A stretch of 64,000 nt of DNA from a bacterium (GTDB lineage: Bacteria; Verrucomicrobiota; Verrucomicrobiia; Limisphaerales; UBA11358): NCBI GenBank assembly GCA_021780905.1, contig JAJXXW010000010.1:1-64000 (forward strand), in the 5' to 3' direction. Both the position numbers and the translations under genes were made by a program. The notes below the pieces were generated by a model. It was not told the DNA's origin and made no database searches. It was given only the letters and a program-made list of their open reading frames with translations. This document shows, one piece after another, positions 20,618 to 52,644 of the stretch; within the stretch, counting starts at the first letter, position 1, and each line of letters opens with the position of its first letter.

Positions 20618-20618
20618 T

Positions 20619-22378: not shown

Positions 22379-22465
22379 AGTTGCCTCCAACGGCAAAAAC
22401 CACTGCTTACGGAATTGGCATTCATGGAGAATCGCCGACGGGTGGTGTTCATGAAAATTAAAAAT

Positions 22466-22879: not shown

Positions 22880-23025
22880 GAGGTGGATATAAGTTCTAGA
22901 TTTTTGCCAGGGCAATGCACTTTTTGATTTCGAGCGTCCGGCCGGCGGGCGCACACAAGGGCAAGTGTCGAGCTTCATGTTGGTTTAACTCTCATGGCTT
23001 CGCCAGCCGGCAACGAAGATACTTA

Positions 23026-26722: not shown

Positions 26723-27985
26723 TCAATTTAATCGCACTACGCGAAAATACCGCTGACCGCTCGGGGCGGTGTCGGTGACGCTCATGTTTAAATTAGTAGC
26801 CGTCACGTCCACTCCCAGAATTGTCCAGGCAGCCGACAGATTCGCCTGAAATTGAACCTGGTAGTTTTTGCCCAGAACGGCATTCCAGGAAAGCGTGGTG
26901 ACGCGGGCGGCGCCGGAAATTTGCACCGACAACTTGAACGGCACCAGCACGACCCGCACCAGCTCATTGTAGGCATCCGCCACGACCAGCGAGCCGTCCG
27001 CCGCCACGACGAGGCCGTAGGGATTGAAAAATCTCGCTCCGCCGTTCGTGCCGTCGGCCGCGCCGGAAATTCCCGCCGCGCCGCACACCGTGCTGACGAT
27101 GCCGTTGGTGGAGATTTCCCGGACCGTCTGGTTGAATGAATCCGCCACAAACAGATTTCCCTTCGGGTCAAACGCCAGCGACGCCGGACTGCGGAAACGC
27201 GCGGTCAACAAATCGCCGTTCGCCGTTCCGTCCTGCCCCGCCGCGCCGGCGAAAGTCGTCACGAGTCCGTTCGTGGTGATCTCGCGGATGGTGTCGTTGT
27301 TGGCGTCGCTGACGAACAGATTTCCGTTCGCGTCCAGCGCCAGTCCGCACGGCGCGTTGAACTGCGCGTTCGTGCCGGTGCCGTCCGCGCTGCCCCAGAC
27401 TTGCGGGCTGCCGGCGAAAGTTGAAACCGCCCCGCCGGCAATTTTGCGGATGCAATGATTCCCGCTGTCCGCCACGAAAACCGTCCCGTTTGTCGAAACC
27501 GCCAGGCCGAGCGGCGAACTAAACAGCGCGCTGCCGATTGCGCCGTCGAGAAAACCGCCGTCACCGGCGACGCCCGCAAACGTCGTCACCGCGCCCGCCG
27601 AAGTGATGTTGCGGATGGCGTTGTTGCCCGTGTCGCTGACGAATAGATTTCCGCCGCCGTCGAACGCCAGTCCGCTTGGCGTGTTGAACAGCGCGTTTGT
27701 GCCGGTGGCGCTGGCGATTCCCGAAACGCCCAACTGTCCGGCGAAGGTCGTCACCACGCCGTTCGTGGTGACTTTGCGGATGGCGTGGTTGCGCGAGTCG
27801 GCGATGAAATAATTTCCGCCCGCATCCACCACGATGGCCGCCGGATCGCCGAACAACGCATTCGTGCCGCTGCCGTTCGCCGCCCCGCTGACCTGCGGCT
27901 GGCCCGCCAGCGTCGTGACGGCATCCTGCGCGCGCAACGCACCAGCGAGCGCGAGCAAAATCAAAATGGTGGACAGTTTTCTCAT
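26723..27985 (-). CDS. Secreted NHL-repeat beta-propeller protein
   Basis: A 420-residue protein with a signal peptide (MRKLSTILILLALAGALRAQ). It is then built of about six NHL repeats of roughly 55 residues, each with AGGNYFIADSRNHAIRKVTT-type and NGVVTTFAG-type strands, for example NLFVSDTGNNAIRNITSAGA and NLFVADSFNQTVREISTNGI. Repeats like these form a six-bladed propeller that binds protein or ligand. The last 80 residues (VQISGAARVTTLSWNAVLGK, then YFRVVRLN) form a small beta domain common at the end of secreted Verrucomicrobia proteins. Its start overlaps the stop of the decahaem cytochrome gene (ATGA at 27982-27985), so the two are probably co-translated. It may be an extracellular or periplasmic partner of that cytochrome. 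Confidence 0.9.
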   Translation of the reverse strand: MRKLSTILILLALAGALRAQDAVTTLAGQPQVSGAANGSGTNALFGDPAAIVVDAGGNYFIADSRNHAIRKVTTNGVVTTFAGQLGVSGIASATGTNALFNTPSGLAFDGGGNLFVSDTGNNAIRNITSAGAVTTFAGVAGDGGFLDGAIGSALFSSPLGLAVSTNGTVFVADSGNHCIRKIAGGAVSTFAGSPQVWGSADGTGTNAQFNAPCGLALDANGNLFVSDANNDTIREITTNGLVTTFAGAAGQDGTANGDLLTARFRSPASLAFDPKGNLFVADSFNQTVREISTNGIVSTVCGAAGISGAADGTNGGARFFNPYGLVVAADGSLVVADAYNELVRVVLVPFKLSVQISGAARVTTLSWNAVLGKNYQVQFQANLSAAWTILGVDVTATNLNMSVTDTAPSGQRYFRVVRLN

Positions 27986-30900: not shown

Positions 30901-31821
30901 GTGATTGTTCGAGCCCATGAAATCCAGCAGCGGATCATGCAGGCGCGTTTTTTGCAGATTCAGATAGACCGGATCAATGCGGTTTAGCGTGCCGAGGCCG
31001 CGTTCGCTCAAACGGCGAGCGGGCTTGCCGGGATCCTCAAACGGATCAGGAATGCCGAGTTGATTTTGTTTTTCGCCGCCGCGCTCGAAGATGCGCAGGA
31101 TGTTGCTCGGCGGCATGATCTCGAAACGCGGCAGCGGCTCGATAAATGGCAAAATCCCCCATCGGTCGGTCATCTGCGGCGTGACGGGCACGGGGCTTTC
31201 CAGCCGCAACGGCACGCCGTCCGCGCCATAAGCCTGGCCGAAACGGTAATTTTTCTGGTTGAACGCGCCGTTGTTGTAAAGTGCCGCGCCCCAGAGCATC
31301 GCGCCGTGGCGCATCATGCTGTGGCCGACATTTTTCACGATGTTGCCGTGGCACGGACCGCAAGTTTCATCGGCGACACGCAGATCGCCGGGATTGACAA
31401 ACTTGATGAACTCGCGCGATTCGTGATTGAGGAGAACGGTCGAGTCGTTCGGATTGGCCGAGCTTTCCCAAAACACCGGATTGCGCGGCGCGATGTGCGC
31501 CTGCGTCTGCCTGAGTCCGGGCGTGGCGTTGCCGCCATGACAATCGGTGCACCCCAGCACCACATTCGGCGATGCGTGCATGGATTCGCTACCGGCGTGA
31601 CATTCCAAGCAACCACGGGATTTTTTGTCGGCCACGGCTTGCGATTGGTCGATCAAGTTGGGCGGCGGTGGTGATTGGGCGGGGTCGCGCGGCAAATCCT
31701 TCGGCACGGAAATCGCCGGGCCGGAGCCGTCGCTCTGCGCGAGCAACGCCAGACTGGCCGCGAGCCAGCCCGCCACGGCCAGCGTGGCAAATCGTCGGGT
31801 TGAAAATAATTTTGTTTTCAT
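27982..31821 (-). CDS. Decahaem cytochrome c with C-terminal LVIVD propeller
   Basis: A 1,279-residue exported protein (signal peptide MKTKLFSTRRFATLAVAGWL, then AASLALLAQS). Ten CxxCH haem sites are present: CLECH, CTDCH, CGPCH, CTACH, CMSCH, CADCH, CVDCH, CQVCH, CFGCH and CEDCH, all within about the first 790 residues. From about 830 onward LVIVD-type repeats follow (GEYLYTANGPDGFQVFDIAN, FAYVADGADGLAFIDISNPE, MFALVADGQNGLRVLQMISP), which form a beta-propeller. Haem spacing is wide, as in large cytochromes with long inserts. It starts two bases after the barrel gene and overlaps the NHL gene. The position next to an outer-membrane barrel suggests transfer of electrons across or to the outer membrane. 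The electron acceptor is unknown. Confidence 0.92.
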   Translation of the reverse strand: MKTKLFSTRRFATLAVAGWLAASLALLAQSDGSGPAISVPKDLPRDPAQSPPPPNLIDQSQAVADKKSRGCLECHAGSESMHASPNVVLGCTDCHGGNATPGLRQTQAHIAPRNPVFWESSANPNDSTVLLNHESREFIKFVNPGDLRVADETCGPCHGNIVKNVGHSMMRHGAMLWGAALYNNGAFNQKNYRFGQAYGADGVPLRLESPVPVTPQMTDRWGILPFIEPLPRFEIMPPSNILRIFERGGEKQNQLGIPDPFEDPGKPARRLSERGLGTLNRIDPVYLNLQKTRLHDPLLDFMGSNNHPGDYRSSGCTACHVVYANDRSPTHSGWYAKYGNQGLSFTADQAIRKDERGHPIQHQFTRAIPTSQCMSCHMHQGNLFVNPYLGYTWWDQETDGEFMYPAKQKNPTPAELTRRLRDNPEAAAARGLWGDLDFLEKVAELNPKLKNTQFADYHGHGWIFRAVFKHDRAGNLRDRDDNLISHDDPQKFAKAVHLEDEHLRHGMQCADCHFDVDVHGNGLLYGEPRAATTIECVDCHGTIQKRPPLVTSGSGGIWTGTNIAGVDLRANNTAYGPRFFWQGRKLFQRSSMAPDLIWEVPQTIDTIDPTSEHYNAKSAYAKTLKRDGKTWGAVTEPEKCPRDLAHDNSNVGCQVCHSSWATSCFGCHLPMRANQRVPANKFEGTTTRNFTSYNPQVVRDDVFQLGVDASYKGNRLAVLRSSSAVIVSSQNANREWVYSQQQTISAEGYSGQAYNPHLPHTTSGVGTTKNCEDCHVAQANDNNAWLASLLGFGTGTVNFFGRYAFVGEGKGGLDAVIWTEQDEPQAALGSHLHKIAYPDNYKKFVEQDHGILHDGEHKEATEILDLVQRGEYLYTANGPDGFQVFDIANIDQKGFSERITTAPVSPLGQRTYIRTKYATSVTLPSTLGVDPLRSRKPENMEQPVSPIYAWVFVTDREEGLVMVTVGTLLDGNPDNNFFDKEKTVRFNPGGKLTGAMHSFMAGTNLYVVGENGLFVVGLRNDALEAPTLAGELTAGLKNPRAVGVQFRYAFVTDDEGFKVLDLTQPTKPKLITGAFVPLKHARRFYLARTFAYVADGADGLAFIDISNPEKPKLERLYNADGKLNDVRAVQIGSVNASMFALVADGQNGLRVLQMISPENVPGHMGFSPVPNPKLIATHPTREPAVAVGRGLDRDRVVDESGNQTVVFGRKGSRPFKLDEMKKFYERDGGLYTVENIFMRDGKLMTRGGGELPPATEYKSSAAESVSTPAESERLMRRGQ

Positions 31822-31823
31822 CG

Positions 31824-34151
31824 CTAGTAGGTGAACGTGATGGCGATCAGGCCGCTGTAGGGAAAATCATTCGAGTTGCCGGTGTTGTTGCTGCGGTCGA
31901 AGCCGGGCACGGGCTGCGTGCTCGTCTGGTAAATGTCGCGGTAGCCCTGACCGGGAATGAGCACGCCGAAGCCGGCCGAAATAATGACGTTGTCCGTGAG
32001 AAACGGGCGATACTGGCAGCCAAGGCTCAAGTCCCAGCCGACCTCGTCGCTCTGTTTCGAGGTGAACAGCGCGGTTTTGATCGCGTCGGTTTCGGCGAAC
32101 AAAATATAATTCGCGTTCAGAAACGTCCGTAGTTTCGGCGTCATGTCAAATTCCGCGCCGACGCCAAAAATGTAAACGCCGGGATTCACGAAGTTCGCCT
32201 GACCCTCGGTTTTGCTCGTGCGCAAATCCGGCACGAGGCTGCCTGCGTTTTTCAGATTCACCATCGTGCCGCCGAGGTTGAAGCCCTGCCGGTTCCAGAA
32301 ACTGAACGGCCCGCCGGTGAAATTCGGGTTGTCCACGATGGTGTCGAACCCCGTCGCCGTGCCGTCCGTGGCGTTGCCGTCGCCGGACGCGTAGAAAAAC
32401 GACGCCTTGTAGCGCGCCCAATCGCGGTCGTAGGAAATTTCCAGCGCCGCCATCTGCGCGTTGATGTTCACGGCGCGGCCGGCGAGGTCGTTGAATTCAT
32501 CGCGGCCCAGCGCCTCGTAAAATTGATGGGATATATTCAGCCGCCCGATGTGCCCGTCACCGCCCCAGCCGAGATAATACGCCGTCACGTCATGCGGCCG
32601 CACCGTGCCGAGCGGTTCGGGGCGCACAAGATTTCCGTTCTCGTCGTAATGCGTTCCGCCGTGGTCGAAGTTCGCGAGGACGCTCCACTCCGCCGTGTAG
32701 CCCGGGCAAAGGAAATCCTGCCGGTATAGATTGGCGATCAAAACCTCCTGGTTGCGGCTATTGAACGTGTTCAGCTCCGAATCCGTGTCCTTCTCGCGCA
32801 TGTCGAAAAACGCCAGATTGTATTGGTAAAGATTGTTCGCGTAATTGCCGAACAGCCGCACGCCGGAATTCACATCGTTGAACAGGAAGCCGCGAAAGTC
32901 CGCGTTGAACGGCTGGTTGCCGACGCGCAGCGAAAGAAAATCATAATTGTCCGACAGGTCGGCAAGATGAATTTCGACGAACGCCTGCTGCAAGGCGAAA
33001 TAGGTTTGGGTCCGCTGCGTGTGCTGCGTCGCGCGGTAGCTGTCCGCCGGGCCGGTCTGGCCGTTGAGCAGACCACCGATGTCGCCGGGATTTTGCACGC
33101 CGCCGTTGTTCGGCGGCGGCGGGCCGTTGCCGCCCAGCGCGCCGCGCGGATCGGGCGAGACGATGCCCGCCTCCTGCGTCTCCAGATAATTCACATTGAA
33201 CACCGGTTCGATCTTCACCGCCCAGTCCACCGGCCGGAAAACTGTTTCCCCCTGAAAAAGATTCATTTCGAACGCGAGGTTGTTCTGGATGCTCAACGCC
33301 TCGCCTTGGCCGTAAAATTCATATTCGCCCGGCACCGCGCCGCTCACGCCGCTGGCCGACGGCACGCGCTTGAATTCCGTCACCGTGTTGGCCGACGCGG
33401 TGAGATCGAGAAAAATATCCTGGCCGATGACCGGCAGATCGCCCTTGAGATAACTCTGCCGATACGGATGCCAGAGCAGCGGCTCCGGGCACTCGAACGG
33501 ATTTTCGATGCTGCCGCTCGTGTAGCGTTTCCACGGCGCGAACCCGATGCGCCAGCGATCCGGCACCGGCACGGTGTTCGTTGGATAATCGCCCTTCTCC
33601 AGGGAATATTTTCGCAGTTGAAAATCCTCATTGATTCTTAATTCCCGCCGCACATTCGCGCGGGGCAGGGCCAGCCCGTTCGTCAACGGTTCGGAACCAA
33701 AATCGCGCGTCGGCGGCAGGGGCGGCGGCACAATTTCGCCGAGCCGCGAATTTTCGCGCGGCAGTTCCAGGCCCGGCGGAATCGCCGGCGGCGTGAACGG
33801 CGGCGGCGCGACCGGCTCGTTGAATAGCGGCGCGGGCGGATTGGTTTCCGGCTGCAGGCTCGCGCCCGGATCGGGATTGAATCGCGGCTCCGTCAGCGAA
33901 TTCGTGACGATGAGGACCCGGCGCGTCCAGTGAAAATCGGTTGGCGGCGGCTCCGGCAGTTGGGCCGGATTCGGATCGGGATTGAAAATTTCCGGCGACG
34001 CCGGCGGCGCGTTCGTGCTGACGGATTGATGCGGCTTCACCGTGTCGTCGGCCAAACCCGCCGAAGACACGCCGGTCGCCAGCCCGGCGCAGATCAGCCG
34101 CTGGAGAATAAATTGATTTGCTTTTGATTCCGGCCACCGCATTGGCTCCAT
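31824..34151 (-). CDS. Outer-membrane beta-barrel protein with Pro-rich N terminus (cytochrome partner)
   Basis: About 775 residues. After an N-terminal export signal (KANQFILQRLICAGLATGVS) there is a roughly 130-residue Pro-rich periplasmic stretch (AQLPEPPPTDFHW, PVAPPPFTPPAIPPGLELP, EIVPPPLPPTRD). A large barrel with alternating aromatic strands follows, ending in the terminal-aromatic signal SGLIAITFTY. Strands such as NNLYQYNLAFFDMREKD, HIGRLNISHQFYEALG and LRTFLNANYILFAETDA fit a barrel of about 20 or more strands. It lies two bases ahead of a decahaem cytochrome gene, the order seen in porin-cytochrome conduits. No N-terminal CxxC typical of Shewanella MtrB was found, so it is not a plain MtrB. 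The start is ATG 34151; a TTG at 34178 is possible. Confidence 0.85.
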   Translation of the reverse strand: MEPMRWPESKANQFILQRLICAGLATGVSSAGLADDTVKPHQSVSTNAPPASPEIFNPDPNPAQLPEPPPTDFHWTRRVLIVTNSLTEPRFNPDPGASLQPETNPPAPLFNEPVAPPPFTPPAIPPGLELPRENSRLGEIVPPPLPPTRDFGSEPLTNGLALPRANVRRELRINEDFQLRKYSLEKGDYPTNTVPVPDRWRIGFAPWKRYTSGSIENPFECPEPLLWHPYRQSYLKGDLPVIGQDIFLDLTASANTVTEFKRVPSASGVSGAVPGEYEFYGQGEALSIQNNLAFEMNLFQGETVFRPVDWAVKIEPVFNVNYLETQEAGIVSPDPRGALGGNGPPPPNNGGVQNPGDIGGLLNGQTGPADSYRATQHTQRTQTYFALQQAFVEIHLADLSDNYDFLSLRVGNQPFNADFRGFLFNDVNSGVRLFGNYANNLYQYNLAFFDMREKDTDSELNTFNSRNQEVLIANLYRQDFLCPGYTAEWSVLANFDHGGTHYDENGNLVRPEPLGTVRPHDVTAYYLGWGGDGHIGRLNISHQFYEALGRDEFNDLAGRAVNINAQMAALEISYDRDWARYKASFFYASGDGNATDGTATGFDTIVDNPNFTGGPFSFWNRQGFNLGGTMVNLKNAGSLVPDLRTSKTEGQANFVNPGVYIFGVGAEFDMTPKLRTFLNANYILFAETDAIKTALFTSKQSDEVGWDLSLGCQYRPFLTDNVIISAGFGVLIPGQGYRDIYQTSTQPVPGFDRSNNTGNSNDFPYSGLIAITFTY

Positions 34152-34195
34152 GAGAAATTGTTTATTTTCAGAAAGCAAGCGCTTATGCTGGGCGC

Positions 34196-35770
34196 GTGGT
34201 GAGACGGATTTTGTCCAATTTGATTTTGGCCCTGCTGGCGGCGCAGACCGCCCCCGCGCAACTCACGCTGGCCGACGTTCAAACCGTCGTCGCCCAGGCC
34301 GTCACCCGCGCCACCGCGCTCGCGCCGCCGCTCCAGACCAACGCCGTCATCGCGCTCACCGACCGTGAAGGCTGGGTTCTCGGTGTCTGGGCGCTCAACC
34401 CGAATGTGACCGGCAACGATCCGCTCGTGGCCGAGGCCATTGCCAAGGCCGGCACGGCCGCATTTTTAAGCAGTGATAATAACGCCTTCAGCTCGCGCAC
34501 CGCCGGCGACATCGTGCAGCAGCATTTTCCGCCGGGCAGCGCCAACACGCCGCCCGGCCCGCTCGTCGGGGTGAATTTTTCGCAGCTCGGTTTTTCCGAC
34601 ATCAATAAATTCAAGGCGCCCGGCAGCGTCATCAGCTATGGCAGTTCGCCCGGCCTCACGCTGGTCGCGCCGCCGCTGCCGCTGACCGGCGGACTCGCCG
34701 GCACGCCCGGCGGTTTGCCGCTCTACAAAAATGGCGCGCTTGTCGGCGGTCTCGGCGTCGCCGGCAACGGCGTGGCGCCGACCGATGTGACTCCGACCGT
34801 CATCACCGGCGCCGACAGCGACGAGGATGTGGCGCTGGCGGGACAAGCGGGCTTTCAGCCGGCAACGGCTATTTTCGGCTCGCAGGTTTTCATCAATGGC
34901 ATCCGGCTGGAATACGTTGAAAGCGCCGCCAGCCCCGGCGCGGTGTTGCCCTTCGGCAGTTTGCCGGGCGCACCCGTTTCGCCCTACACGCTCATCGGCA
35001 CGCCGCCGCCGTTTCCTTATCCGGTGGTGACGCTCGGCGGCGAAACCGGCGAACTGCGCCAGCCGATCATTGACGATCCCTCGACCGTGCCGCTGGGCGC
35101 GACGCGCCTTTCGGGCACGGAAGTTTCCAACCTTCTCGCCGCCGCCGCCAACCGCGCCCGCACCACGCGCGCCGGCATCCGCCTACCGCGCGGCCAGGTC
35201 GCGCAGGTCTTCATCACCGTCGTCAACAATCCTAATTCCAACGGCGTGCCGCCGGTCGTGCTCGGCACTTTTTGCACTTCCGCCCATGCCACGCGGTTCA
35301 GCTGGGACGTGGCCGTGCAAAAGGCGCGCACGGCGGTTTTCTTTTCCGCGACCAACCGCGCCTATTCCGCGCGCACCGTCGGATTTCTGGCGCAAAGCAA
35401 CTATCCGCCGGGCATTGACGGGACGCAGCCGGGAATATTTTTCGGCTTGCAGGAAAGATTTAGCATCACGAATTCAACGGCAATCCTCGCGACGAATCCC
35501 GTGAATGGCGCGGTGTTCACCACTTCAACCAACGTGAATCCGAATCTGCCGAACGGCATCACGATTTTTCCGGGCGGCTTTCCGCTGTATCGCAACGGCG
35601 TGCTGATCGGCGCGATCGGCGTGAGCGGTGACGGCGTGGACCAGGACGATTTGATTGCGGCCAGCGGCGCGTCGTTGTTTCTCGCGCCGGTGCCCATCCG
35701 CGCCGACCAGACGCAATACCGGGGCGCGCGGCTGCCGTTCGCGAAATTTCCGCGCAACCCGGCGCTGTGA
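34196..35770 (+). CDS. Secreted tandem GlcG/HbpS-like (haem-binding-type) protein
   Basis: A 524-residue protein with a signal peptide (VVRRILSNLILALLAAQTAP, start GTG at 34196 or 34199). Two GlcG/HbpS-like domains repeat. The first has VIALTDREGWVLGVWAL, AKAGTAAFLSSDNNAFSSRT and GLPLYKNGALVGGLGVAGNG. The second has VAVQKARTAVFFSATNRAYS and GFPLYRNGVLIGAIGVSGDG. Single-domain relatives include HbpS, which binds haem, and GlcG of unclear role. Such proteins occur beside multihaem cytochrome genes, as here. It diverges from the barrel-cytochrome operon across only about 45 bases. Haem binding or a redox-linked sensing role is an inference from family and place. Confidence 0.85.
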   Translation: MVRRILSNLILALLAAQTAPAQLTLADVQTVVAQAVTRATALAPPLQTNAVIALTDREGWVLGVWALNPNVTGNDPLVAEAIAKAGTAAFLSSDNNAFSSRTAGDIVQQHFPPGSANTPPGPLVGVNFSQLGFSDINKFKAPGSVISYGSSPGLTLVAPPLPLTGGLAGTPGGLPLYKNGALVGGLGVAGNGVAPTDVTPTVITGADSDEDVALAGQAGFQPATAIFGSQVFINGIRLEYVESAASPGAVLPFGSLPGAPVSPYTLIGTPPPFPYPVVTLGGETGELRQPIIDDPSTVPLGATRLSGTEVSNLLAAAANRARTTRAGIRLPRGQVAQVFITVVNNPNSNGVPPVVLGTFCTSAHATRFSWDVAVQKARTAVFFSATNRAYSARTVGFLAQSNYPPGIDGTQPGIFFGLQERFSITNSTAILATNPVNGAVFTTSTNVNPNLPNGITIFPGGFPLYRNGVLIGAIGVSGDGVDQDDLIAASGASLFLAPVPIRADQTQYRGARLPFAKFPRNPAL

Positions 35771-37953: not shown

Positions 37954-38826
37954 ATGAAAACAATTCTTCTTATCACGGCCGTGACGTTGGCGGGCTGGTT
38001 TTCCGGCGCGGCCGCGCCGCTGACGGAAAGCACTTTCACGGAAATCATCAACGAGGTCAACACCCTCTCCGCCGCCGGCCACGCCACGCCGGCGCGAATG
38101 GACGAGGTGCTCAAGGCACCGGAACGCGTCCGCACCGGGCCGCAGTCGCGCGCGGAACTCACCGCGCCAGACCGGACGATCACGCGCGTCGGCGCGAACA
38201 CGGTGTTTTCCTACGCGGACAGCGGGCGCACGCTGAACCTGGAACAGGGCAACCTGCTCTTCCACGCGCCGAAGGGTCTCGGCGGCGGCACGATCAAGTC
38301 CGGTGGCGCGGCGGCGGCGGTGCTCGGCACGACGCTGATCGTGTCGGCGACAGCGGGCGGCGGGTTCAAGGTGATATTGCTTGAAGGCACAGGCACGGTG
38401 ACGTTGCCCGGCGGAAATTCCGCGACGTTGCACGCCGGTCAGTTGGTGTTCATTTTGCCGGGCGGAAAATTAAGTCCCGTGTTGAATATCAACCTCGGCA
38501 GGCTTGTGGACGGCTCGCTGCTGGTGAAGGGATTTTCGCATGAGCTTTCGTCGCTGCCGCTGATTCTGGCGGCCGTTCAAAATCAAGATTCCAAAATCAA
38601 ATCTGGCGCGGCGGCCGACACCGGACGGTCGCCGGACAACTATTTGAATCCACCCGTGCCTGGCAACGGCTTCAACACCTTGACGCCGGGCACCTATCAG
38701 ATCGCCGTGCCGCAGCCGCTCTCGCCGAACCAGTATTACAACGCGATTGGCGGGTCCACCGGCCAAGGCCCCACCGGCGGCACCGGGGGACGCGGCATTG
38801 TCATCACCACCATTCCCGTCGGTTAA
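37954..38826 (+). CDS. Secreted FecR-domain protein
   Basis: A 290-residue protein with a signal peptide (MKTILLITAVTLAGWFSGAA). The FecR domain covers about residues 55-165: RVRTGPQSRAELTAPDRTIT, then VGANTVFSYADSGRTLNLEQ, GNLLFHAPKG and TAAVLGTTLIVSA-like strands (here AAAAVLGTTLIVSATAG) with NSATLHAGQLVFILPG. The rest is Gly/Pro-rich and ends in GGTGGRGIVITTIPVG. Stand-alone exported FecR proteins, unlike the sigma-factor regulators, are often encoded beside CHASE2 cyclases and may present a periplasmic ligand to the CHASE2 sensor. That link is inferred. It is followed 10 bases later by an outer-membrane barrel gene. Confidence 0.9.
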   Translation: MKTILLITAVTLAGWFSGAAAPLTESTFTEIINEVNTLSAAGHATPARMDEVLKAPERVRTGPQSRAELTAPDRTITRVGANTVFSYADSGRTLNLEQGNLLFHAPKGLGGGTIKSGGAAAAVLGTTLIVSATAGGGFKVILLEGTGTVTLPGGNSATLHAGQLVFILPGGKLSPVLNINLGRLVDGSLLVKGFSHELSSLPLILAAVQNQDSKIKSGAAADTGRSPDNYLNPPVPGNGFNTLTPGTYQIAVPQPLSPNQYYNAIGGSTGQGPTGGTGGRGIVITTIPVG

Positions 38827-38836
38827 AATTCATACT

Positions 38837-39871
38837 ATGCGCACCCGGAAAATATTTTTCAAAGCCGGCCTGACGGTTGGCGCATCGCTTGCCTGCCTGC
38901 CCGCCCTGGCCCAAATGCCCAACGCCTACCAGCAGGTGGACACGCTGGACCAGCAGCGCCAGCTTCAACAGTCGGCGCAAGCCCTGAACACCAACAGCGT
39001 TCCCGCCCTGTATGACGGCGAAACCAGCGATGTCGGCCCGCAATCGGTTTTGCAGTTGAATCCGCGCCGGACCTGGCTTCAGGCTTACGCCGACGCGCAG
39101 TTTTTTTACACGGACAACGTATTCCTCGCCGATCACAACAAGCAGGACGCCAATGTGCTGGTCAGCACCGTGATGGCGGCGCTGGCGCCGACGCCGTATA
39201 ACTTTGAGGACGGCCAGATCGCGCCGCGCCTCGGCTACCAGCACCAGTGGTTCAACTATGACCTGACCGGTTCCAGCCGTCTGCCAATCGTCAACAACCA
39301 GTATGGCGTCAGTCCGGGCGGAGTGGACACGTTTGATTTCAATGTTTCGACGGTCTTTGCCGACGTGAGCTGGCGGCGGCATAACTGGCAGTTCACGCTG
39401 GGCGCCGATTTCCGCCAGTTGCTGGACTCCGGCAGTTACCGCGAATTTTACCGCGAATACGTTCCGCGCTGGTCGGTGAGCCGCGACTTCAACCTCACGC
39501 CCGCCACCGGCATCTCCATCGGTTATCAGGGCGATTACCGCGTGACGGACACCGCCGGTCCGGTGCCCTCCGGCTCCGGCACGGACTACAACGACCGCAC
39601 CGACCAGGGCGTTTATGTCGTGGGAAGCTGGCGGCTGTGCCGCCACGCCATTTTGCAGCCCTATTACAATCTTCAATACACGCACTACACACGCATCCAC
39701 CGTGACGATTTGTTGAATGCGTTCGGTCTGACGCTGTATTGCCCGCTGACGCAAAACATCACGCTGCGCGGATTTGTCGGTTACGACGACTTCAACACGG
39801 ACGGGTTTTACGCCCAGAATTATGAGCAGCTCGCTGCGGGTGGCGGGCTGAACCTTTCCGTCCGGTTCTAA
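38837..39871 (+). CDS. Outer-membrane beta-barrel protein (about 14 strands)
   Basis: A 344-residue protein with a signal peptide (MRTRKIFFKAGLTVGASLAC, then LPALAQ). The mature part alternates beta strands rich in Tyr, Phe and Trp (TWLQAYADAQFFYTDNVFLA, HNWQFTLGADFRQLLDSGSY, ILQPYYNLQYTHYTRIH, NITLRGFVGYDDFNTDGFYA) and ends GGGLNLSVRF, with the terminal Phe of Bam-recognised barrels. It resembles the uncharacterised barrels that follow FecR-domain proteins in other genomes, with which it probably forms one operon. The start is an ATG at 38837, just after the FecR stop; the frame is open upstream but lacks a signal there. It meets the decahaem operon tail to tail with six bases between. Confidence 0.88.
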   Translation: MRTRKIFFKAGLTVGASLACLPALAQMPNAYQQVDTLDQQRQLQQSAQALNTNSVPALYDGETSDVGPQSVLQLNPRRTWLQAYADAQFFYTDNVFLADHNKQDANVLVSTVMAALAPTPYNFEDGQIAPRLGYQHQWFNYDLTGSSRLPIVNNQYGVSPGGVDTFDFNVSTVFADVSWRRHNWQFTLGADFRQLLDSGSYREFYREYVPRWSVSRDFNLTPATGISIGYQGDYRVTDTAGPVPSGSGTDYNDRTDQGVYVVGSWRLCRHAILQPYYNLQYTHYTRIHRDDLLNAFGLTLYCPLTQNITLRGFVGYDDFNTDGFYAQNYEQLAAGGGLNLSVRF

Positions 39872-39877
39872 GCCGTT

Positions 39878-41443
39878 TTAGCGCGCCGCGATTTGAGGCT
39901 GGTGGTAAGTGTGGCACTCCGCGCAGGTGTCCGCCACGCCACCGCGCGGACTGTGGCATTCGGCGCAGGTTTCTTTCGCGGGCAACAGGATATTCGCCGT
40001 GTCTTTGCTGTGAACTGCATCGTGGCACTTCTCGCAGGAAACTCCCGCATGTTTGGCGTGAATGAACTTCGCCTGCGCCAGCCAGCGTTCCGTTTGAATC
40101 GGCTTCGTGATTTCCGTTGAACTGGCTATCGAGCTTTCCACCTCATGGCAATACGCACAACCGGGGAAAATCGCCCGCGTCGCGCCATTCACGCTGCCCA
40201 CGGTGATTTCCGGCGCGGTTGTCGCCGTGCTGAAGAAAATACGCTTCTCCAAATCTTCGCCGCTGCCAAACTGTGTCCGCAAACCCGCAAGTTTTTTGGC
40301 GGCAAAATCATTTGCGTCCGTCACACCCGCTTTCATGGCCAGATCCAAATACTGCTTCGGCAAGCTGCGCAGATACGCCGACACAAATTCCGCGCTGCCG
40401 TGCGGCAGTTGCAGTTGGGGCGTCTCCGGATCGAACTGCAAGGAGTGGCACACGCGGCAATTTTTCTCGAACGCCACCGGCTTCATCAACGCGCCCGCCG
40501 CGTCCGGCTGATGGCAAAACGCGCAGTCCAATTTCTCGCCACCGGGCAATTTGGGAATCGTCGGGCCCGTCAGGTGCAGCGCGTGATTGAATTTCAGCGT
40601 GTCCGGATCGCGCAGTTTTTCCGTGAGGAATCTGAACTGCGGATGGTCAGTGGCGAAATGGTGCATCACCGGCGTCTTCGGACTGACCGCCAGCTTCGCC
40701 GCATCTGCATGGCAAAAACCGCAGTTCGCGTCCGTCGTCGCCGCCATCTTGATGCCCTGATGCTCCGCGTGGCAAAATGAACACGAAATCGGCGGCGCGT
40801 CCGGCTGATGCACGTTCCGACCCGCGTGACATTTCAAACACGATTCATCAATCGCCGTCGGTTCCTCCGCCTTTGCCAGCGCGAGTTGTTTCAAATCCAA
40901 AATGCCCGGCTGTGCGCGCAACGCCGCGTTCACCAGGCCGTCCGGCCCGGAATTTCCGGCGTTGTGACATGCGCCGCAATTTTGGTTCAAATGATTCGTC
41001 GCCGCGAGCACCGCGAACGCCGCACCGGTATGTGGCGCGGAAACTGTCCCGGGATTGATGAAATGGTTTCGCCACGTCGGATTGCCGAGAACAATCAGCA
41101 GCACCGCGCACGAAGCGGCAATGACTGCGAGCGTCACGCGCCCGCGCCACACACGCAGCGTCGGCACTGGTGAACATTTCGGGATGGGATTGCAGCAGCT
41201 CCCGTCCGGTAGCGGACCGGCTTCGCATTCGCCGCAGGTGCGCGTGCAAATCCAGCGGCCTTTTGTTTCGCCCGGTTTGATTTTCAGCACCGGCTTGCAC
41301 TCGGCGGTCGCCTGGCAATAGCCTTTCGCATCGGGGCCAAGCCGGCACGCTTTGCCTTCGCACGCGTGACCGCAGATCCAATTTTGATTCGGTCGCGCAT
41401 AATTCTGCGCGTCAAAATCCGGCGCCGGCAGTTGCTCGCTCAT
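39878..41443 (-). CDS. Membrane-anchored decahaem cytochrome c with duplicated Cys-rich N-terminal head
   Basis: A 521-residue protein. Residues 22-92 are a cytoplasmic-side head with eleven cysteines in two repeats, NWICGHACEGKACRLGPDAK and RWICTRTCGECEAGPLPDGS, each ending C-x-P. A single membrane helix follows (about 102-119, RVTLAVIAASCAVLLIVLG). The periplasmic part has ten CxxCH sites: CGACH, CLKCH, CSFCH, CGFCH, CAFCH, CRVCH, CAYCH, CEKCH, CAECH and CAECH. Extra His residues (HQPD, MHHFATDHPQ, NHALH, IHAKH) can serve as distal ligands. It is the last gene of the operon reductase - cNMP/FeS - cyt b - this gene, with ATGA overlap to cyt b. It probably receives electrons from cyt b and passes them into the periplasm. 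Confidence 0.92.
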   Translation of the reverse strand: MSEQLPAPDFDAQNYARPNQNWICGHACEGKACRLGPDAKGYCQATAECKPVLKIKPGETKGRWICTRTCGECEAGPLPDGSCCNPIPKCSPVPTLRVWRGRVTLAVIAASCAVLLIVLGNPTWRNHFINPGTVSAPHTGAAFAVLAATNHLNQNCGACHNAGNSGPDGLVNAALRAQPGILDLKQLALAKAEEPTAIDESCLKCHAGRNVHQPDAPPISCSFCHAEHQGIKMAATTDANCGFCHADAAKLAVSPKTPVMHHFATDHPQFRFLTEKLRDPDTLKFNHALHLTGPTIPKLPGGEKLDCAFCHQPDAAGALMKPVAFEKNCRVCHSLQFDPETPQLQLPHGSAEFVSAYLRSLPKQYLDLAMKAGVTDANDFAAKKLAGLRTQFGSGEDLEKRIFFSTATTAPEITVGSVNGATRAIFPGCAYCHEVESSIASSTEITKPIQTERWLAQAKFIHAKHAGVSCEKCHDAVHSKDTANILLPAKETCAECHSPRGGVADTCAECHTYHQPQIAAR

Positions 41444-42258
41444 CGCGCACCTCCCGAAAATCCGAACACCAAAACAAGGTGTAGCGCGGTGAATATTAAT
41501 AGTCCGTAAGTCAGCGGGATGTGGACGAACAGCCACAGCCGCAACGCGAGTTGCAGGGCGCGGTGATAGTCCAATCCGTCTTTCTGACGAACGTAGGCCG
41601 CGAGCTTCTCAAGTTTTTCCTTTTCCGCGACGGTGGCGAAACGGCGCAGGTCCTCCAGTTCGGCCAGCAATCCGCCGACTTCCCGCCGCGATTCCGACAG
41701 ATGTTTCCAGAAGTTTTTCGGGCCGGAGAAAAATGCGGCCAGCCGCTGGGTGTAAAATTCCGCGATGACCACGGATTTGGCCTCCGCACCCAATGCCAAA
41801 CTTTCGGCCCCAGTTTTCAACGCGTGGCGCAGTGCCGGTATTTTTTCAAAGATGACCTCACCGCCGCGCGTCGCGAGCCGGCGCGGCAACACGCGGCTGA
41901 AAAATAATCCGACGAATCCGCTGCCGCTAACGAGCACGAACAGCCACGCCAGCGTGATTTCAAACCAGCCATGCGGCAGGCGAAAGTTCAGATGGATGAG
42001 AAACAGCAGCGTCGTGAAAAAGCCGAGGTAAACGTGGATTTGCAGCCACGTCTCGGATTTGCCGAGCGGCAGGAACGGCAGTTTTTTCCGCACATTGTAG
42101 ATCGTCAGCACAAACATTCCCGCGAGCAGCACCCAGCCGGTGAGATAGGCGTAGTTCATCAGCGCGTTGAATTTTGCATTCAGCCACAAGGCTCCCGCCG
42201 TCGCGGCAATCAGCGCGGACAAACCGGAAAAAAGTTGGCGGCGGAAGCGGTTCATCAT
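41440..42258 (-). CDS. Di-haem cytochrome b-type membrane protein
   Basis: A 272-residue integral membrane protein with about five helices. His75 and His89 (WLQIHVYLGFFTTLLFLIHL) and His246 and His260 (WLFVHIPLTYGLLIFTALHL) are both spaced by 14, the pattern that holds two b haems across a four-helix bundle. A soluble, charged, probably helical insert lies between (about 125-235, EKIPALRHALKTGAESLALG and onward). It carries electrons across the inner membrane between the cytoplasmic iron-sulfur protein and the periplasmic decahaem cytochrome. Overlaps with both neighbours (ATGA each side) indicate strict coupling. The start is the first Met of MMNRF at 42258; Met2 is equally possible. Confidence 0.88.
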   Translation of the reverse strand: MMNRFRRQLFSGLSALIAATAGALWLNAKFNALMNYAYLTGWVLLAGMFVLTIYNVRKKLPFLPLGKSETWLQIHVYLGFFTTLLFLIHLNFRLPHGWFEITLAWLFVLVSGSGFVGLFFSRVLPRRLATRGGEVIFEKIPALRHALKTGAESLALGAEAKSVVIAEFYTQRLAAFFSGPKNFWKHLSESRREVGGLLAELEDLRRFATVAEKEKLEKLAAYVRQKDGLDYHRALQLALRLWLFVHIPLTYGLLIFTALHLVLVFGFSGGAR

Positions 42259-43976
42259 TTCAGCCACTTCGACAGCGAATCCAGATTGTTCAGGTTCATC
42301 CGTGTGAGCGCGCCGTGCGGACAGGCGCGTTCGCAGGACGGGCCGCCCCAGTTTTCCACGCAGAGATCGCACTTGGTCGCCTTGGCGATGGGTTTCATCT
42401 CCTGATCCACAAGCAGTTCGCCGCGTTCATCGCGCACCTCGACCATGCGGATGGCGTCGTAGGGACAGTTCGTGAAACAGGATTTGCAGCCGATGCACGT
42501 CGCGGGATTGATGACGACCTGTCCGGCGAACGACTCGCGATGAATCGCGCCGGTCGGGCAGCCAATCATGCAGACGGGATCGGCGCAGTGCATGCAGGCG
42601 TTGGCGATCATCAGCCGCCCGGCGCTCGGACCGTGACGCAGGAAACGCGGGTTATTGTCGTGCGTCGAGGCGCAGGCGCGCACGCAATCGTCGCAACGCG
42701 TGCAGCGGTCGAGGTCAATCACCATCGTGGCCGTGCCGTTGAAGAACCGGTTCACGGTGAGAAATTCCAGAATTTCCGCGCCAACTTTTTCGCGCGCGAC
42801 GGTTTCTGGCGGTGCGGAATCAAAAACGTCGTCGCGTTCTTCAATGAGCGGCGGCAGTTCGCTTTTCGGTAGCGACGGCAAAACAATTTCTTCCATGACG
42901 CGCGTCGGCACGATGAGCAAATGTGTGTAGCCGATGGCGCGGAGCGAGAATTGAAAATTCACCGGCGCGTCTTTTTTGCGCCAGTTGTGGGCGATTTCGT
43001 CCAGCCCAAAAATCTGTCCTGCACCAATGTAATTCAAAGTGCGTTCGCCGGCGCCGAATTTCTGGCTCACGCGCGCGAAACCGGCGCGCAATAGCACGAT
43101 ACCATTCGGGTAATCACCTTCGCCAACAATGACGGGCTCTTTCTCCGGGCGCACGCTGCCGGATTGCGCGAGGCGTTTGTATTCGCCGGACCAGTCGTAA
43201 TCGCCGTAGGTCGAAAACTCCACAGCCTCGGCCACACTGGCGAGTTGCTCCTTCGACAAATTTTTGAAGAGCGGCGTGGCGCGGAGATACGAGGCGAGCG
43301 CACGTTCGCGGTAAATCTGGTTGATGTGCGTGCGCAGCGCGTCGTCGTATTTCATCAGGTCGCGCAGACCCTGCCAGCGGATTTCCAGAAGTTCCGCATC
43401 TTCGCTGTCGGCAAAAATCGTGGACGTGCGCGCCATGCGGCTGAGCGCGGCGATCTCGCCGAAAAATTCCCCGGCGAACATTTCCGCCGTGCGGTGCTGA
43501 TCCAAAATGCGCGGCACGTCCTGCAAGAAAACGCGCGTCTCCTTTTCATTCTGCCGCGCGCTGACTCCGGAACTTTGTCCCAGCCGAGTGCGCGGCCGCA
43601 TTTCCGGCGGACGCGAGCCGTTGAAGATTTGCGCGAGTGTGCGGAACATCCCTTTTTTGTTCGTCGCCTGGCGGCCGAGGAGCGACGGCGGAAGGTCAGG
43701 CTTCAGCACCACACGCGCTGTGCCCTGCAAAATCAGGAACGCCGAAGTGCCGTAATCGCCCTGGCGCATGATGATTTCACCCGTGCGGAATTTTAGGAAG
43801 CGCGTGTCGTTGCGGAGAATTTCGCGGAGCGGCGTGCGGTTGGGAAATTTCTCGGGGCGCATCCCGCTGAACGGCGCGGTGGCCAGCAGGCGATCCACCG
43901 CCGCATCCGTCATGTTCGGATCGAACGCGGCGTCCCAGCGTTGCGGACGTTCGAGGATGGTCGGGGCGGCGGGCAT
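42255..43976 (-). CDS. Fusion of two cyclic-nucleotide-binding domains with a four-cluster ferredoxin domain
   Basis: A 573-residue soluble protein. The first cNMP-binding domain (about 55-225) has a 65-residue insert and keeps the phosphate-binding cassette GEFFGEIAALSRMARTSTI with Glu and Arg183. The second (236-365, GAGQIFGLDEIAHN) has lost the Arg and is probably structural. The ferredoxin part has sixteen cysteines in four groups: 425/428/431/435, 461/464/469/473, 494/497/500/504 and 536/539/548/552, enough for four 4Fe-4S clusters, as in HybA/DmsB-type electron-transfer subunits. It overlaps the reductase and cyt b genes. It probably moves electrons from the flavoprotein to cyt b. Control by cAMP or cGMP is suggested by the intact first cassette but unproven. 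Confidence 0.92.
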   Translation of the reverse strand: MPAAPTILERPQRWDAAFDPNMTDAAVDRLLATAPFSGMRPEKFPNRTPLREILRNDTRFLKFRTGEIIMRQGDYGTSAFLILQGTARVVLKPDLPPSLLGRQATNKKGMFRTLAQIFNGSRPPEMRPRTRLGQSSGVSARQNEKETRVFLQDVPRILDQHRTAEMFAGEFFGEIAALSRMARTSTIFADSEDAELLEIRWQGLRDLMKYDDALRTHINQIYRERALASYLRATPLFKNLSKEQLASVAEAVEFSTYGDYDWSGEYKRLAQSGSVRPEKEPVIVGEGDYPNGIVLLRAGFARVSQKFGAGERTLNYIGAGQIFGLDEIAHNWRKKDAPVNFQFSLRAIGYTHLLIVPTRVMEEIVLPSLPKSELPPLIEERDDVFDSAPPETVAREKVGAEILEFLTVNRFFNGTATMVIDLDRCTRCDDCVRACASTHDNNPRFLRHGPSAGRLMIANACMHCADPVCMIGCPTGAIHRESFAGQVVINPATCIGCKSCFTNCPYDAIRMVEVRDERGELLVDQEMKPIAKATKCDLCVENWGGPSCERACPHGALTRMNLNNLDSLSKWLK

Positions 43977-45286
43977 CAGGCGTCGAGCACGAGGTCGTTT
44001 TTCGGGCGGCAAACGCAGGTGAGACACGAGCCGGCTTCCGGTTCCGCATCGGGTTTTTTGAGGTAATCCACCGCGCCGGATTTGATGGCGACGACGCACG
44101 AGCCGCAACTGCCCGCGCAGCAACCGGAATCAATCTTCACGCCCTGCGCGGCGGCAAATTCCAGGAGATTTTCCGCCGACGGCTCCCAGCGGACGGTCTT
44201 GTTTGAGCGCGCAAACGTCACGTTTATTTTTGCGAGATGGACGGTTTCGCTCGGCGAGGGCGCGGCGGTTTTTTTCTTCACCGTCGCCGGGCCGAACGCC
44301 TCGAAGTGCACGTCCTTGTCCGGCACGCCCCACGCTTCGAGGCCGTCGGTGAGGCTCTTCATGAACGCGCCGCTGCCGCAAAGGTAATATTCAAAATTGT
44401 TTGACGGCAAAACTTCCTTGAGCAGCTCGATGCTCACGCGGCCTTCGTGCTGAAAATCCTTTCCCTTCACCTCGTCCGGGCCGGGCTTGCTGTAGGCGAC
44501 GTGCAATTGGATGTTGTCGTTTTCCGCCGCGAGCTTTTCCAGTTCCTCCTTGTGGATGTGTTCGCGGCGGTTGCGCACGCCGAAGAAGAAATAGGCCTCG
44601 CGCTTGGAACCGCTTTCGGCGATGGCCCTGGCCATGCACAGCATCGGCGTGATGCCCACGCCGCCGGCGAGCAGCACGATGGGATTGGATTTGGCCATGT
44701 CCAAAAAGAAATGCCCGTTCGGCGCCTTCACGTTCAGGATGTCGCCTTCCCTCACCACGTCGGTGAAGTAGCTGGAGCCGGCGCCCGGCGGCGCGTCGGG
44801 TTTGGCCGGCGGCGCTTTTTCCTTTTTGATGGTGACGCGGTAGAAATCCTTTTTGCCGTCGTTGCAATCCGACAGCGAATAGCAGCGGATGAGCGGCTTG
44901 TCGCGGCCGGGCAGGTCGAGTTGGAAGGTCAGGTATTGACCGGGCTTGAACGCCGGCAACGGCCGGCCGTCGTGCGGCTTGAGGTAAAAAGCGTTCACGT
45001 CGTCGCCCTCGCGGATTTTTTTGGTGACCGAGAATTTGCGGATCCCATTCCAGCCGGCCTGCACCTGCTCCGCCTCGCGGCAGCGGATTTTCGCCTCCTG
45101 CAACTGCCAGTGAAGCTTTTCCAGGGCGACCGTCCGCTGGCGGCGCTCACCCATGAGCCGGAGCAGCGCCCGCCAAACTTCCACGGCCAGCCAGGCCAGC
45201 AACCCCGCCAGCAGCACCACGCCGGCCCGGGTGCTAAAACTATCTCGGCTTGCGTCGCGCAAAGTATCAATTAGGGTTGCATTCAC
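43976..45286 (-). CDS. Membrane-anchored FNR-type flavoprotein with C-terminal 2Fe-2S domain
   Basis: A 436-residue NAD(P)H-type reductase. A membrane helix (about 20-43, RAGVVLLAGLLAWLAVEVWR) and a coiled stretch precede the FAD domain, with LIRCYSLSD (RxYS, residues 134-137) for the flavin and GGVGITPMLCMARAI (208 onward) for the nucleotide. EAFGP closes the reductase. The plant-type 2Fe-2S domain has CCAGSCGSC and CLTCVC (Cys389/394/397 and 424 the likely ligands). The order FAD-NAD-2Fe2S is that of Hmp/oxygenase reductases. As the first gene of the operon it is the likely electron entry point. It diverges from a c554-like cytochrome gene by 29 bases. Confidence 0.93.
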   Translation of the reverse strand: MNATLIDTLRDASRDSFSTRAGVVLLAGLLAWLAVEVWRALLRLMGERRQRTVALEKLHWQLQEAKIRCREAEQVQAGWNGIRKFSVTKKIREGDDVNAFYLKPHDGRPLPAFKPGQYLTFQLDLPGRDKPLIRCYSLSDCNDGKKDFYRVTIKKEKAPPAKPDAPPGAGSSYFTDVVREGDILNVKAPNGHFFLDMAKSNPIVLLAGGVGITPMLCMARAIAESGSKREAYFFFGVRNRREHIHKEELEKLAAENDNIQLHVAYSKPGPDEVKGKDFQHEGRVSIELLKEVLPSNNFEYYLCGSGAFMKSLTDGLEAWGVPDKDVHFEAFGPATVKKKTAAPSPSETVHLAKINVTFARSNKTVRWEPSAENLLEFAAAQGVKIDSGCCAGSCGSCVVAIKSGAVDYLKKPDAEPEAGSCLTCVCRPKNDLVLDA

Positions 45287-45315
45287 GCCGCCACTCCATT
45301 AACCAATTTGAAGTT

Positions 45316-46434
45316 GTGAGTAAAACTTTTTGTTTGATTGCGGCCGCGGTCGCCGGCGCAGCCGCCTGCGTTTCCGGGGGCGATTTGACCGCAAAATTTC
45401 TGGGGGCGAACTCCTGTGCCAGCACCAGTTGCCACGGTGGCGGCGGCGCCGGACAAAATCAGTTCCTCGTCTGGTCGCTCAAGGATTTTCATTCGCAACG
45501 GCCGCCGGCCACGCTGGCCACCGCGCGCTCCAAACAGATTGCCGACGCGCTTGCCATCAAGGACCCGACGGCGGACGCGCGCTGCACGGTCTGCCATGCG
45601 CCGCTCGCCTCGGTTCCGGAAAATCGGCGCGGCGAAAATTTCAAGGTGTGCGAAGGTGTGTCGTGCGAAAGCTGCCACCGCCCGGCGGAAAACTGGCTGC
45701 GCGGCCATGCGCGGCCCGATTGGACGCGCGCCGATCGCGCCGCCGCCGGGATGCGCGACCTGCAAAATCTTTACGTCCGCGCCAACACCTGCGTCGCGTG
45801 CCACCAGAATGTGGATGCGGACATCCTCAAGGCCGGCCACCCCGAATTAATTTTTGAACTGGACGGCCAGAGCGTGGCCGAGCCCAAACACTGGCGCGCG
45901 GAGAAAAATGGCAACGGCGCGCAGGCGTGGCTGGTCGGGCAGGCGGTGGCGTTGCGGGAAATGAGCTGGCAGACTAGCCGGGAAAAATCACCGGATGAGA
46001 ATTTAAAAATCCGCTGGCTGGCTTTGTATTGGCTGATGAAAAGTGGATTTTCTCTGGCTGAATCCGAAGCGGTTCCCGTTTCTACGGCGGCCGTGGGGAA
46101 CGCCCCATGGATTCAAAATTGGAGCGATGGTCGCGCCAAATATTTTTCCGGGGTGGCCTGGTCTGATGAAATGACGCGCAAGACATTGGCGGCATTGGCC
46201 GGCATGCGTGACGCTTTCGCTGACAAAACTGTTGCGCAAAATCTCCAAGCCCGCCGCGCCGAGCGGCTGGTGCTCGCCCTCGACCGGCTGGTCGCTGCGC
46301 TGCCGGAGTTGAAAAACAACGAACCGGTGCAAACGTCGCTCGACCAGTTGTTCAAGCTGGCGCAGTCCGTCCCCGATTTTGATCCCCCACAGTTCGCGGC
46401 GGCCCTCACGAAATTTTCCACGGCCCTCCAATAA
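45316..46434 (+). CDS. Periplasmic c554-like multihaem cytochrome (one CX4CH site)
   Basis: A 372-residue exported protein, start GTG 45316 (signal VSKTFCLIAAAVAGAAACVS). Haem sites are CASTSCH, CTVCH, CESCH and CVACH. The first has four residues between the cysteines rather than two; CX4CH sites are known in some multihaem proteins. The segment FLGANSCASTSCHGGGG and the CESCHRPAENWLRGH and CVACHQNVDADILKAGHPEL parts resemble cytochrome c554/hydroxylamine-oxidoreductase relatives, with His in GHPEL a possible distal ligand. The C-terminal half is helical and haem-free. The start lies 29 bases from the divergent reductase gene, so both may share a control region. A role as periplasmic electron carrier or acceptor reductase is inferred. 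Confidence 0.88.
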   Translation: MSKTFCLIAAAVAGAAACVSGGDLTAKFLGANSCASTSCHGGGGAGQNQFLVWSLKDFHSQRPPATLATARSKQIADALAIKDPTADARCTVCHAPLASVPENRRGENFKVCEGVSCESCHRPAENWLRGHARPDWTRADRAAAGMRDLQNLYVRANTCVACHQNVDADILKAGHPELIFELDGQSVAEPKHWRAEKNGNGAQAWLVGQAVALREMSWQTSREKSPDENLKIRWLALYWLMKSGFSLAESEAVPVSTAAVGNAPWIQNWSDGRAKYFSGVAWSDEMTRKTLAALAGMRDAFADKTVAQNLQARRAERLVLALDRLVAALPELKNNEPVQTSLDQLFKLAQSVPDFDPPQFAAALTKFSTALQ

Positions 46435-52559: not shown

Positions 52560-52598
52560 AATTTGAAAATGCTGGTTTGCTGAATCTGGACGAGGAAC

Positions 52599-52630
52599 AA
52601 AAAACGCCCCGGCGATTTCCGTCGGGGCGT
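52599..52630 (-). terminator. Terminator-like hairpin between rpsG and fusA
   Basis: ACGCCCCGGCG (52604-52614), loop ATTTC, CGTCGGGGCGT (52620-52630): eleven pairs including one G-T. On the minus strand it is followed directly by six T (52599-52604), the form of an intrinsic terminator. It lies inside the str operon, 14 bases after the rpsG stop and 39 before the fusA start. It may partly uncouple fusA from the ribosomal genes. Confidence 0.75.
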
Positions 52631-52644
52631 GTTGAAAAAACTTC

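Follow-up and report, generated by a model that had tools for sequence, protein, structure and literature searches.

Can a second messenger act on a stream of electrons directly, at the protein that carries them? The question is raised by four overlapping genes (g1 to g4) on the minus strand of a 64,000-nucleotide stretch of verrucomicrobial DNA (positions 1 to 64,000 of contig JAJXXW010000010.1, assembly GCA_021780905.1; hereafter the window), the second of which encodes two cyclic-nucleotide-binding (CNB) domains fused to four 4Fe-4S cluster sites. The control that cAMP is known to exert on extracellular electron transfer is transcriptional, via CRP in Shewanella, and we know of no earlier case of a second messenger controlling electron flux itself. 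A sequence-only reading of the four genes had proposed that electrons run from NAD(P)H through flavin, iron-sulphur (Fe-S) clusters and haem b to periplasmic haem c, with a cyclic nucleotide acting on the Fe-S step. The analysis reported here finds that the electron-transfer system is larger than these four genes, and we lean slightly towards interpreting the locus as an electron conduit that leads from NAD(P)H to the cell surface and in which a cyclic nucleotide controls the Fe-S relay. If this is true, the relay, with a fully conserved nucleotide pocket built into it, would give the first case known to us of such direct control of electron flux.

The four-gene operon and its Fe-S protein

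By coordinates and joints, the four overlapping genes are present exactly as had been claimed: g1 and g2 have one base in common (TGATG), and the g2/g3 and g3/g4 joints are ATGA overlaps. A tblastn scan with g2 over one genome per species (E <= 1e-3) gave 522 relatives, some of which may share merely the Fe-S or the CNB part with g2, and the best 80 were examined as loci. Because the order g1-g2-g3-g4 on one strand is kept in 77 of these 80, the arrangement is not a matter of chance; in the remaining three (L025, L053 and L084) contig ends fall inside the operon. Seven of the 80 loci were treated as non-Verrucomicrobiota by record title and sequence distance, namely four from Planctomycetota (L092, L093, L095 and L096, the records of L092 and L095 being titled complete genomes), L094 from Poribacteria, L097 from Latescibacterota and L099 from an alphaproteobacterial metagenome-assembled genome (MAG). 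Several records carry organism names that look wrong (e.g. Akkermansia, Klebsiella and Proteobacteria MAG titles), and these were not used as taxonomy. A binning artefact as the source of the cluster was ruled out, since records titled complete (CP011265.1, NZ_AP019860.1 and CP050848.1) carry g1-g4 and the plasmid NZ_CP020539.1 carries counterparts of the system. At a protein-search threshold of E <= 1e-30, g2 was found in 13 of 288 genomes sampled across the phylum, two of them (G013 and G166) with a distant form, and in nine of 40 near-relative genomes, both samples including the window's own genome; the distribution is therefore patchy. One genome, G121, has an intact g2 copy (L011) and, on another contig, a second copy split into two overlapping frames (L014 and L015). 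No relative of g2 was found among the viral contigs searched.

The description of g2 as a cytosolic protein with two CNB domains and four 4Fe-4S sites is upheld. The Pfam model cNMP_binding (PF00027) matches in three stretches (74.9 bits against a gathering score of 27.5; E = 4.9e-21), which are the first domain (CNB1), interrupted by some 60-65 inserted residues, and the second (CNB2); several Pfam 4Fe-4S models also match, and no hydrophobic segment was found. The protein was aligned in 99 rows (the window, the 80 scan loci and 18 others), with L001 (the window itself), L012/L013 (a distant lineage, compared apart) and the split copy L014/L015 left out. All 16 Fe-S cysteines of the four motifs are identical in 99/99 sequences, as are F172, G173, E174, A177, R180 and R183 of CNB1, and T184 is kept in 94/99. 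The Gly, Glu and Arg of the first cassette (GE...ART), the conservation of which the sequence-only reading had named as a check, are thus invariant, including the phosphate-binding Arg, whose loss in most homologues would have refuted that reading's proposal; the proposal passes this sequence test. CNB1 as a vestige is ruled out by this identity of the phosphate cassette. The residue after the cassette Arg is Thr in the PKG and HCN domains that accept cGMP, and since it is mostly Thr in CNB1 as well, cGMP is as good a candidate ligand as cAMP. Among the matches listed (the best 25 of 64 NCBIfam models), no named Fe-S subfamily exceeded its cut-off for g2; the scores were 61.6 bits for DmsB (cut-off 214.1), 63.3 for HydN (260) and 48.2 for HybA (263).

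A proposed route from NAD(P)H to the outside

On the input side, g1 has the domains of the membrane-anchored FAD/2Fe-2S reductase that had been read from it: NAD_binding_1 (E = 1e-19), Fer2 (6.9e-11) and FAD_binding_6 (1.4e-6), together with an N-terminal hydrophobic segment at residues 23-41 and the motifs RCYS, GGVGITP and CCAGSCGSC. Its nearest NCBIfam model is that of flavohaemoprotein, to the reductase half of which it is related (257.7 bits, cut-off 432); this and the other reductase models stayed below cut-off among the matches listed (the best 25 of 30 models).

The membrane part consists of g3 and g4. The di-haem cytochrome b with His pairs 14 residues apart is confirmed in g3, where H75/H89 and H246/H260 are invariant in 41/41 members, and the H-x13-H pairs persist at about 30% identity in L012/L013 and in Sphingobium. 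In the AlphaFold model of g3 (pLDDT 92.5), oriented by our own positive-inside reading, the helices bearing these pairs would place one haem near each membrane face. No Pfam model exceeds its cut-off for g3, and the family gives weak matches to DUF4405 (21/41), cytochrome b561 (Ni_hydr_CYTB, 4/41) and Ferric_reduct (2/41; best E = 0.026). Against the PDB nothing significant was found by sequence, and by fold (Foldseek, haem-free model) there was no match at E <= 1e-3, the top helical matches being taken as chance. The membrane-anchored decahaem cytochrome g4 likewise agrees with its earlier description: it has ten CxxCH motifs and a single hydrophobic segment at about 103-121, and Pfam multihaem models match it. 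Ahead of the membrane span, however, lies a domain that had been overlooked (41147-41443), in which C24, C33, C43, C49, C66, C73, C83 and C90, in two sets of four, are present in 79/79 rows. This 8-Cys domain, which in our own reading is on the cytosolic side, is a candidate for a second metal site and could be of Fe-S, rubredoxin-like or zinc type; it matches no Pfam family, and its best PDB matches, MCM8 and NuoE, are weak (E = 0.014 and worse).

The electron path of the sequence-only reading holds up, but with periplasmic haem c as its endpoint it is too short, because the locus and many relatives add a c554-type tetrahaem cytochrome, a predicted outer-membrane beta-barrel and a decahaem cytochrome with LVIVD repeats. 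The c554-type gene is divergent from g1: its likely start, GTG at 45316 (+), is 29 bases from that of g1 at 45286 (-), which leaves hardly any room for two separate promoters (45281-45320). It is present in 68/80 loci (E <= 1e-5), with its haem cysteines in 67-69 of 69 rows, and in L094, L095, L096, L097 and L099 (in L097 at E <= 1e-3 only) it separates g1 from g2 and is encoded on their strand. The c554-type cytochrome is a fifth member of the system. The barrel, which has no Pfam match, is found in 33/80 loci and the LVIVD cytochrome, likely at the outer membrane or surface, in 28/80, counts for which many of the stretches were cut by contig ends. Each occurs as one copy in the window's genome, as an operon (34178-27982) inside the window, and in Opitutaceae-like loci (L072, L076, L077, L080 and L086) g4 is followed by the predicted barrel and the LVIVD cytochrome.

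The LVIVD cytochrome (threshold 1e-100) also accompanies g2 at the level of genomes, being present in 9/9 near relatives with g2 and 2/31 without it (Fisher p = 2e-7), and in 8/13 phylum genomes with g2 and 1/275 without it (p = 1e-11), p-values that ignore the relatedness of the genomes. The three genomes with the cytochrome and without g2 are G292, G320 and G257. In G013 and G166, whose form has no adjoining g1, it is encoded elsewhere in the genome.

A second association comes from plasmids, where relatives of g2 were found in 12 records, all of Sphingobium (about 28% identity, up to 70% of the query), many of which are probably near-identical; at least 10 of the 12 are also among the 13 records with the LVIVD cytochrome. 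On plasmid pMSHV of S. herbicidovorans MH, two CNBs and four Fe-S sites are fused to a pyridine-nucleotide oxidoreductase domain in a single protein of 825 aa (B6S01_RS18455), behind which come a cytochrome b of 296 aa and a decahaem protein. From about 2 kb beyond there are an LVIVD cytochrome (B6S01_RS18425; 45% identity), a barrel (35% over 575 aa; E = 4.9e-149 among eight proteins with its own profile), an HbpS-like protein (34%) and a c554-like cytochrome (36%). The swap of the FNR-type reductase for a non-homologous NAD(P)H-type flavoprotein fusion gives independent support for the sequence NAD(P)H to flavin to Fe-S.

We therefore propose the following path. NAD(P)H would reduce the FAD and 2Fe-2S cluster of g1, and g2 would take up the electrons on its four 4Fe-4S clusters. 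By way of the two b haems, g3 would carry them across the inner membrane to the anchored decahaem protein g4 and to the c554-type cytochrome. From there they would move through the barrel to the LVIVD cytochrome outside, where humics, Fe(III) and metalloid oxyanions are candidate acceptors. The outward direction is suggested by the facts that electron export from NADH is downhill and that no pump was recognised. Inward flow, in which a surface donor would feed the LVIVD cytochrome, the chain would end at NAD(P)+ or at an acceptor in the cytosol and the nucleotide would control uptake, seems improbable to us. All parts of the conduit are reversible in principle, and g2-g3-g4 also occur with no reductase adjoining them in the distant three-gene form of L107/L108 (the same loci as L012/L013), which consists of the CNB/Fe-S protein, a cytochrome b with a long Pro/Ala-rich insert and a decahaem protein without the 8-Cys domain, and whose genomes have the LVIVD cytochrome at another place. 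However, the formation of NAD(P)H by inward flow would be an uphill process opposed by the membrane potential, no ion-coupled subunit was recognised in the cluster, and Fer2-bearing reductase domains usually oxidise NAD(P)H.

The module might also feed a periplasmic or surface reductase, with the c554-type or LVIVD cytochrome acting on nitrogen oxides, selenite, tellurite or similar substrates, and not serve general extracellular respiration. The c554 family match, the flavohaemoprotein-like g1 and a match of 50 residues between the LVIVD cytochrome and ExtM, which belongs to selenite/tellurite reduction operons (E = 2.1e-14, 52.8 bits against a cut-off of 800), would fit such a role, which we regard as unlikely though worth keeping in mind; no named catalytic family exceeded its NCBIfam cut-off among the matches listed.

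Possible control by a cyclic nucleotide

The CNB domains of g2 would sit in the chain between the flavin input and the Fe-S relay, and binding of a nucleotide to CNB1 would most likely switch g2 between two states, one that conducts electrons and one that does not (or in which it is undocked), much as PKA regulatory subunits are switched through their tandem CNB. Two things suggest such gating: the conserved nucleotide pocket is part of the relay itself, and other signalling elements (FHA domains, a kinase gene and a cyclase) are found repeatedly nearby. A gate would be needed when the system is idle, since outward flow without a pumping subunit would drain NADH and the membrane potential together; NADPH oxidases likewise use up reductant and membrane potential.

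A candidate local source of the signal is a CHASE2 sensor-class III nucleotide cyclase, whose gene sits between the g1-g4 half and the barrel/LVIVD half of the system (Table 1). Related cyclases are found in 11/80 loci at 57-74% identity, and in L103 at 24%. The aligned rows keep an Asp pair, an Asn and an Arg in the catalytic domain, which we take to have metal and transition-state roles. In the window's genome this cyclase is one of two PF00211 matches, and three further cNMP domains are encoded on contig 67, so this locus does not have the signal to itself. Elsewhere an FHA domain is fused to g1 (L096) or to g2 (L092, beside which lies a Ser/Thr kinase gene), and the decahaem protein of pMSHV has an N-terminal FHA-like stretch below the Pfam cut-off; a signal input thus recurs. 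At the pMSHV locus no counterpart of the cyclase, the FecR-domain protein or the second outer-membrane protein was found.

On this basis we suggest, tentatively and at a little under even chances, that a second messenger acts directly as the switch, opening or closing the NAD(P)H-driven export of electrons across both membranes, as in a ligand-gated, NADPH-oxidase-like "electron channel" that in the window's group would take its signal from the in-locus cyclase. The CNBs could be structural or docking parts of the same conduit, or sensors of another ligand, without gating, which we consider rather unlikely. CNB2 lacks the cassette Glu in 99/99 sequences (the position being Leu, Phe or another hydrophobic residue), so at least one domain has been kept without a full cassette, and CNB folds with other ligands exist, such as CooA, CprK and NtcA. 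Yet a purely structural CNB1 would not need its G, E and R in every sequence, and CNB2, degenerate in the window's lineage, has Glu and Arg in two distant lineages (L107/L108 and Sphingobium), as has CNB1, which speaks against a structural role alone.

The interpretation of the locus as a gated conduit has to face a number of adverse observations. Besides the missing Glu, the aligned Arg of CNB2 is present in just 72/99 sequences, although the CNB2 counts hinge on how the rows are aligned: a Glu that every sequence has (E327) stands two positions beyond the expected one. In its AlphaFold model, g2 has good stretches in the CNB part and is poorly modelled in the Fe-S part; the mean pLDDT is 68.7, with residues 461-550 in blocks of 37-56 and values below 50 at 176-181, inside the CNB1 cassette. 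In the PDB, Foldseek matches this model best to PKA regulatory subunits and PKG, by way of their tandem CNB (E down to 2e-16), a likeness of fold and not of arrangement (rmsd 14.9, TM 0.41 by target). The CHASE2-type cyclase is adjacent in only 11/80 loci, and its adenine-Lys position is His (EHFLGDQ) in 12 of the 13 covering rows (the window and 11 loci), the distant cyclase of L103 being the exception. As for the conduit, five of the 13 phylum genomes with g2 (G075, G121, G122, G126 and G155) have no LVIVD cytochrome. Three of the seven non-phylum loci have no c554 match at E <= 1e-5, L092 and L093 having none, and none of the seven has this barrel or LVIVD cytochrome within the stretch covered; L097 and L099 have instead another predicted barrel and a c554-type cytochrome upstream.

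Table 1. Genes of the electron-transfer system and their neighbours in the window
Feature	Position	Strand	Basis or occurrence
g1, membrane-anchored FAD/2Fe-2S NAD(P)H reductase, 436 aa	43976..45286	-	Pfam domains, hydrophobic segment
g2, tandem CNB and four 4Fe-4S sites, 573 aa	42255..43976	-	Pfam, alignment
g3, di-haem cytochrome b, 272 aa	41440..42258	-	His pairs, model
g4, N-terminal 8-Cys domain, one membrane span, decahaem c domain, 521 aa	39878..41443	-	CxxCH, alignment
c554-type tetrahaem cytochrome (CX4CH and three CxxCH)	45250..46434	+	Pfam family match, loci
Predicted outer-membrane beta-barrel ("porin"), 784 aa, ends ...ITFTY	31824..34178	-	Size, context, C-terminal aromatic
Decahaem cytochrome with LVIVD repeats, 1279 aa, ten CxxCH	27982..31821	-	Motifs, loci
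CHASE2 sensor-class III nucleotide cyclase, 723 aa	35777..37948	-	Pfam, 41.5 against 21.9 bits
FecR-domain protein	37954..38826	+	12/80 loci; travels with cyclase
Second predicted outer-membrane protein, 374 aa, ends ...LSVRF	38747..39871	+	10/80 loci; travels with FecR and cyclase
HbpS-like haem-binding protein, 524 aa, recurrent neighbour	34196..35770	+	31/80 loci
NHL-repeat beta-propeller, optional member	26723..27985	-	ATGA overlap with LVIVD cytochrome; 6/80 loci

Known systems and other features of the window

In MtrCAB-type conduits a periplasmic decahaem cytochrome, a barrel and a surface decahaem cytochrome receive electrons from the quinol pool by CymA. The present system is similar in its decahaem g4, predicted barrel and decahaem LVIVD cytochrome, but the input would be NAD(P)H via flavin, Fe-S and cytochrome b, with a nucleotide domain in the chain. 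The window's g4, c554-type and LVIVD cytochromes did not reach the cut-off of any MtrC/OmcA model, whereas the g4 counterparts of L097, L107 and L110 exceed that of the Pfam MtrC/MtrF domain II/IV. In NADPH oxidases and ferric reductases, electrons pass from NAD(P)H to FAD and to two b haems held on two helices, with His residues 13-14 apart, and then outside. The proposed path and the His spacing of g3 are the same, and the system would likewise depolarise the membrane; unlike in NADPH oxidase, the flavin and haem parts are separate here, with one 2Fe-2S and four 4Fe-4S sites between them.

With PKA regulatory subunits and PKG, g2 shares the tandem CNB fold and the cassette FGE...R-T-A/S-T, but its effector would be an Fe-S electron relay and not a kinase. 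The Hmc, Tmc and DsrMKJOP complexes also combine a cytosolic Fe-S protein, a membrane part and a periplasmic multihaem cytochrome; they are not known to contain a CNB, and no NrfD-type subunit was recognised in the present system. Among the literature matches listed (titles and starts of abstracts, in a scope with most subscription journals and bioRxiv outside it), no description joins a CNB with a multihaem or Fe-S chain, and the combination of cyclic nucleotide-binding with multiheme cytochrome gave no match.

For Verrucomicrobia, the main text of He et al. 2017 (PMC5615132) describes a porin-multihaem cytochrome system, including that of IMCC26134, in which the inner-membrane step is left open and marked just "ET in IM"; "cyclic nucleotide" and "ferredoxin" each occur 0 times in that text. 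Both systems have multihaem cytochromes and a porin, which in the present one is a predicted barrel, and the IMCC26134 genome carries the present one (L080, CP011265.1). According to the same text, however, the periplasmic cytochrome has eight haems, whereas g4 has ten, and the two porins may differ. The present system supplies a candidate for the missing inner-membrane step, and its counterpart in a cultured alphaproteobacterium makes it testable now.

Among the neighbours in Table 1, the 374-aa second outer-membrane protein has no credible Pfam match. Rfam and tRNA scans of the window gave no match. Elsewhere in the window there are a cluster of type III polyketide synthase, methyltransferase, FAD-binding protein and DCC1-like thiol oxidoreductase (19574-22978) and a MerR/B12-binding regulator (23204-24166). 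Elongation factor G (50346-52733) probably carries a large insert, the match to its 188-position GTP-binding domain model spanning residues 76-378, and its called start may be too long. A 2261-aa open reading frame (7667-14452) contains DUF6288, HEAT, cadherin-like and autotransporter-type repeats.

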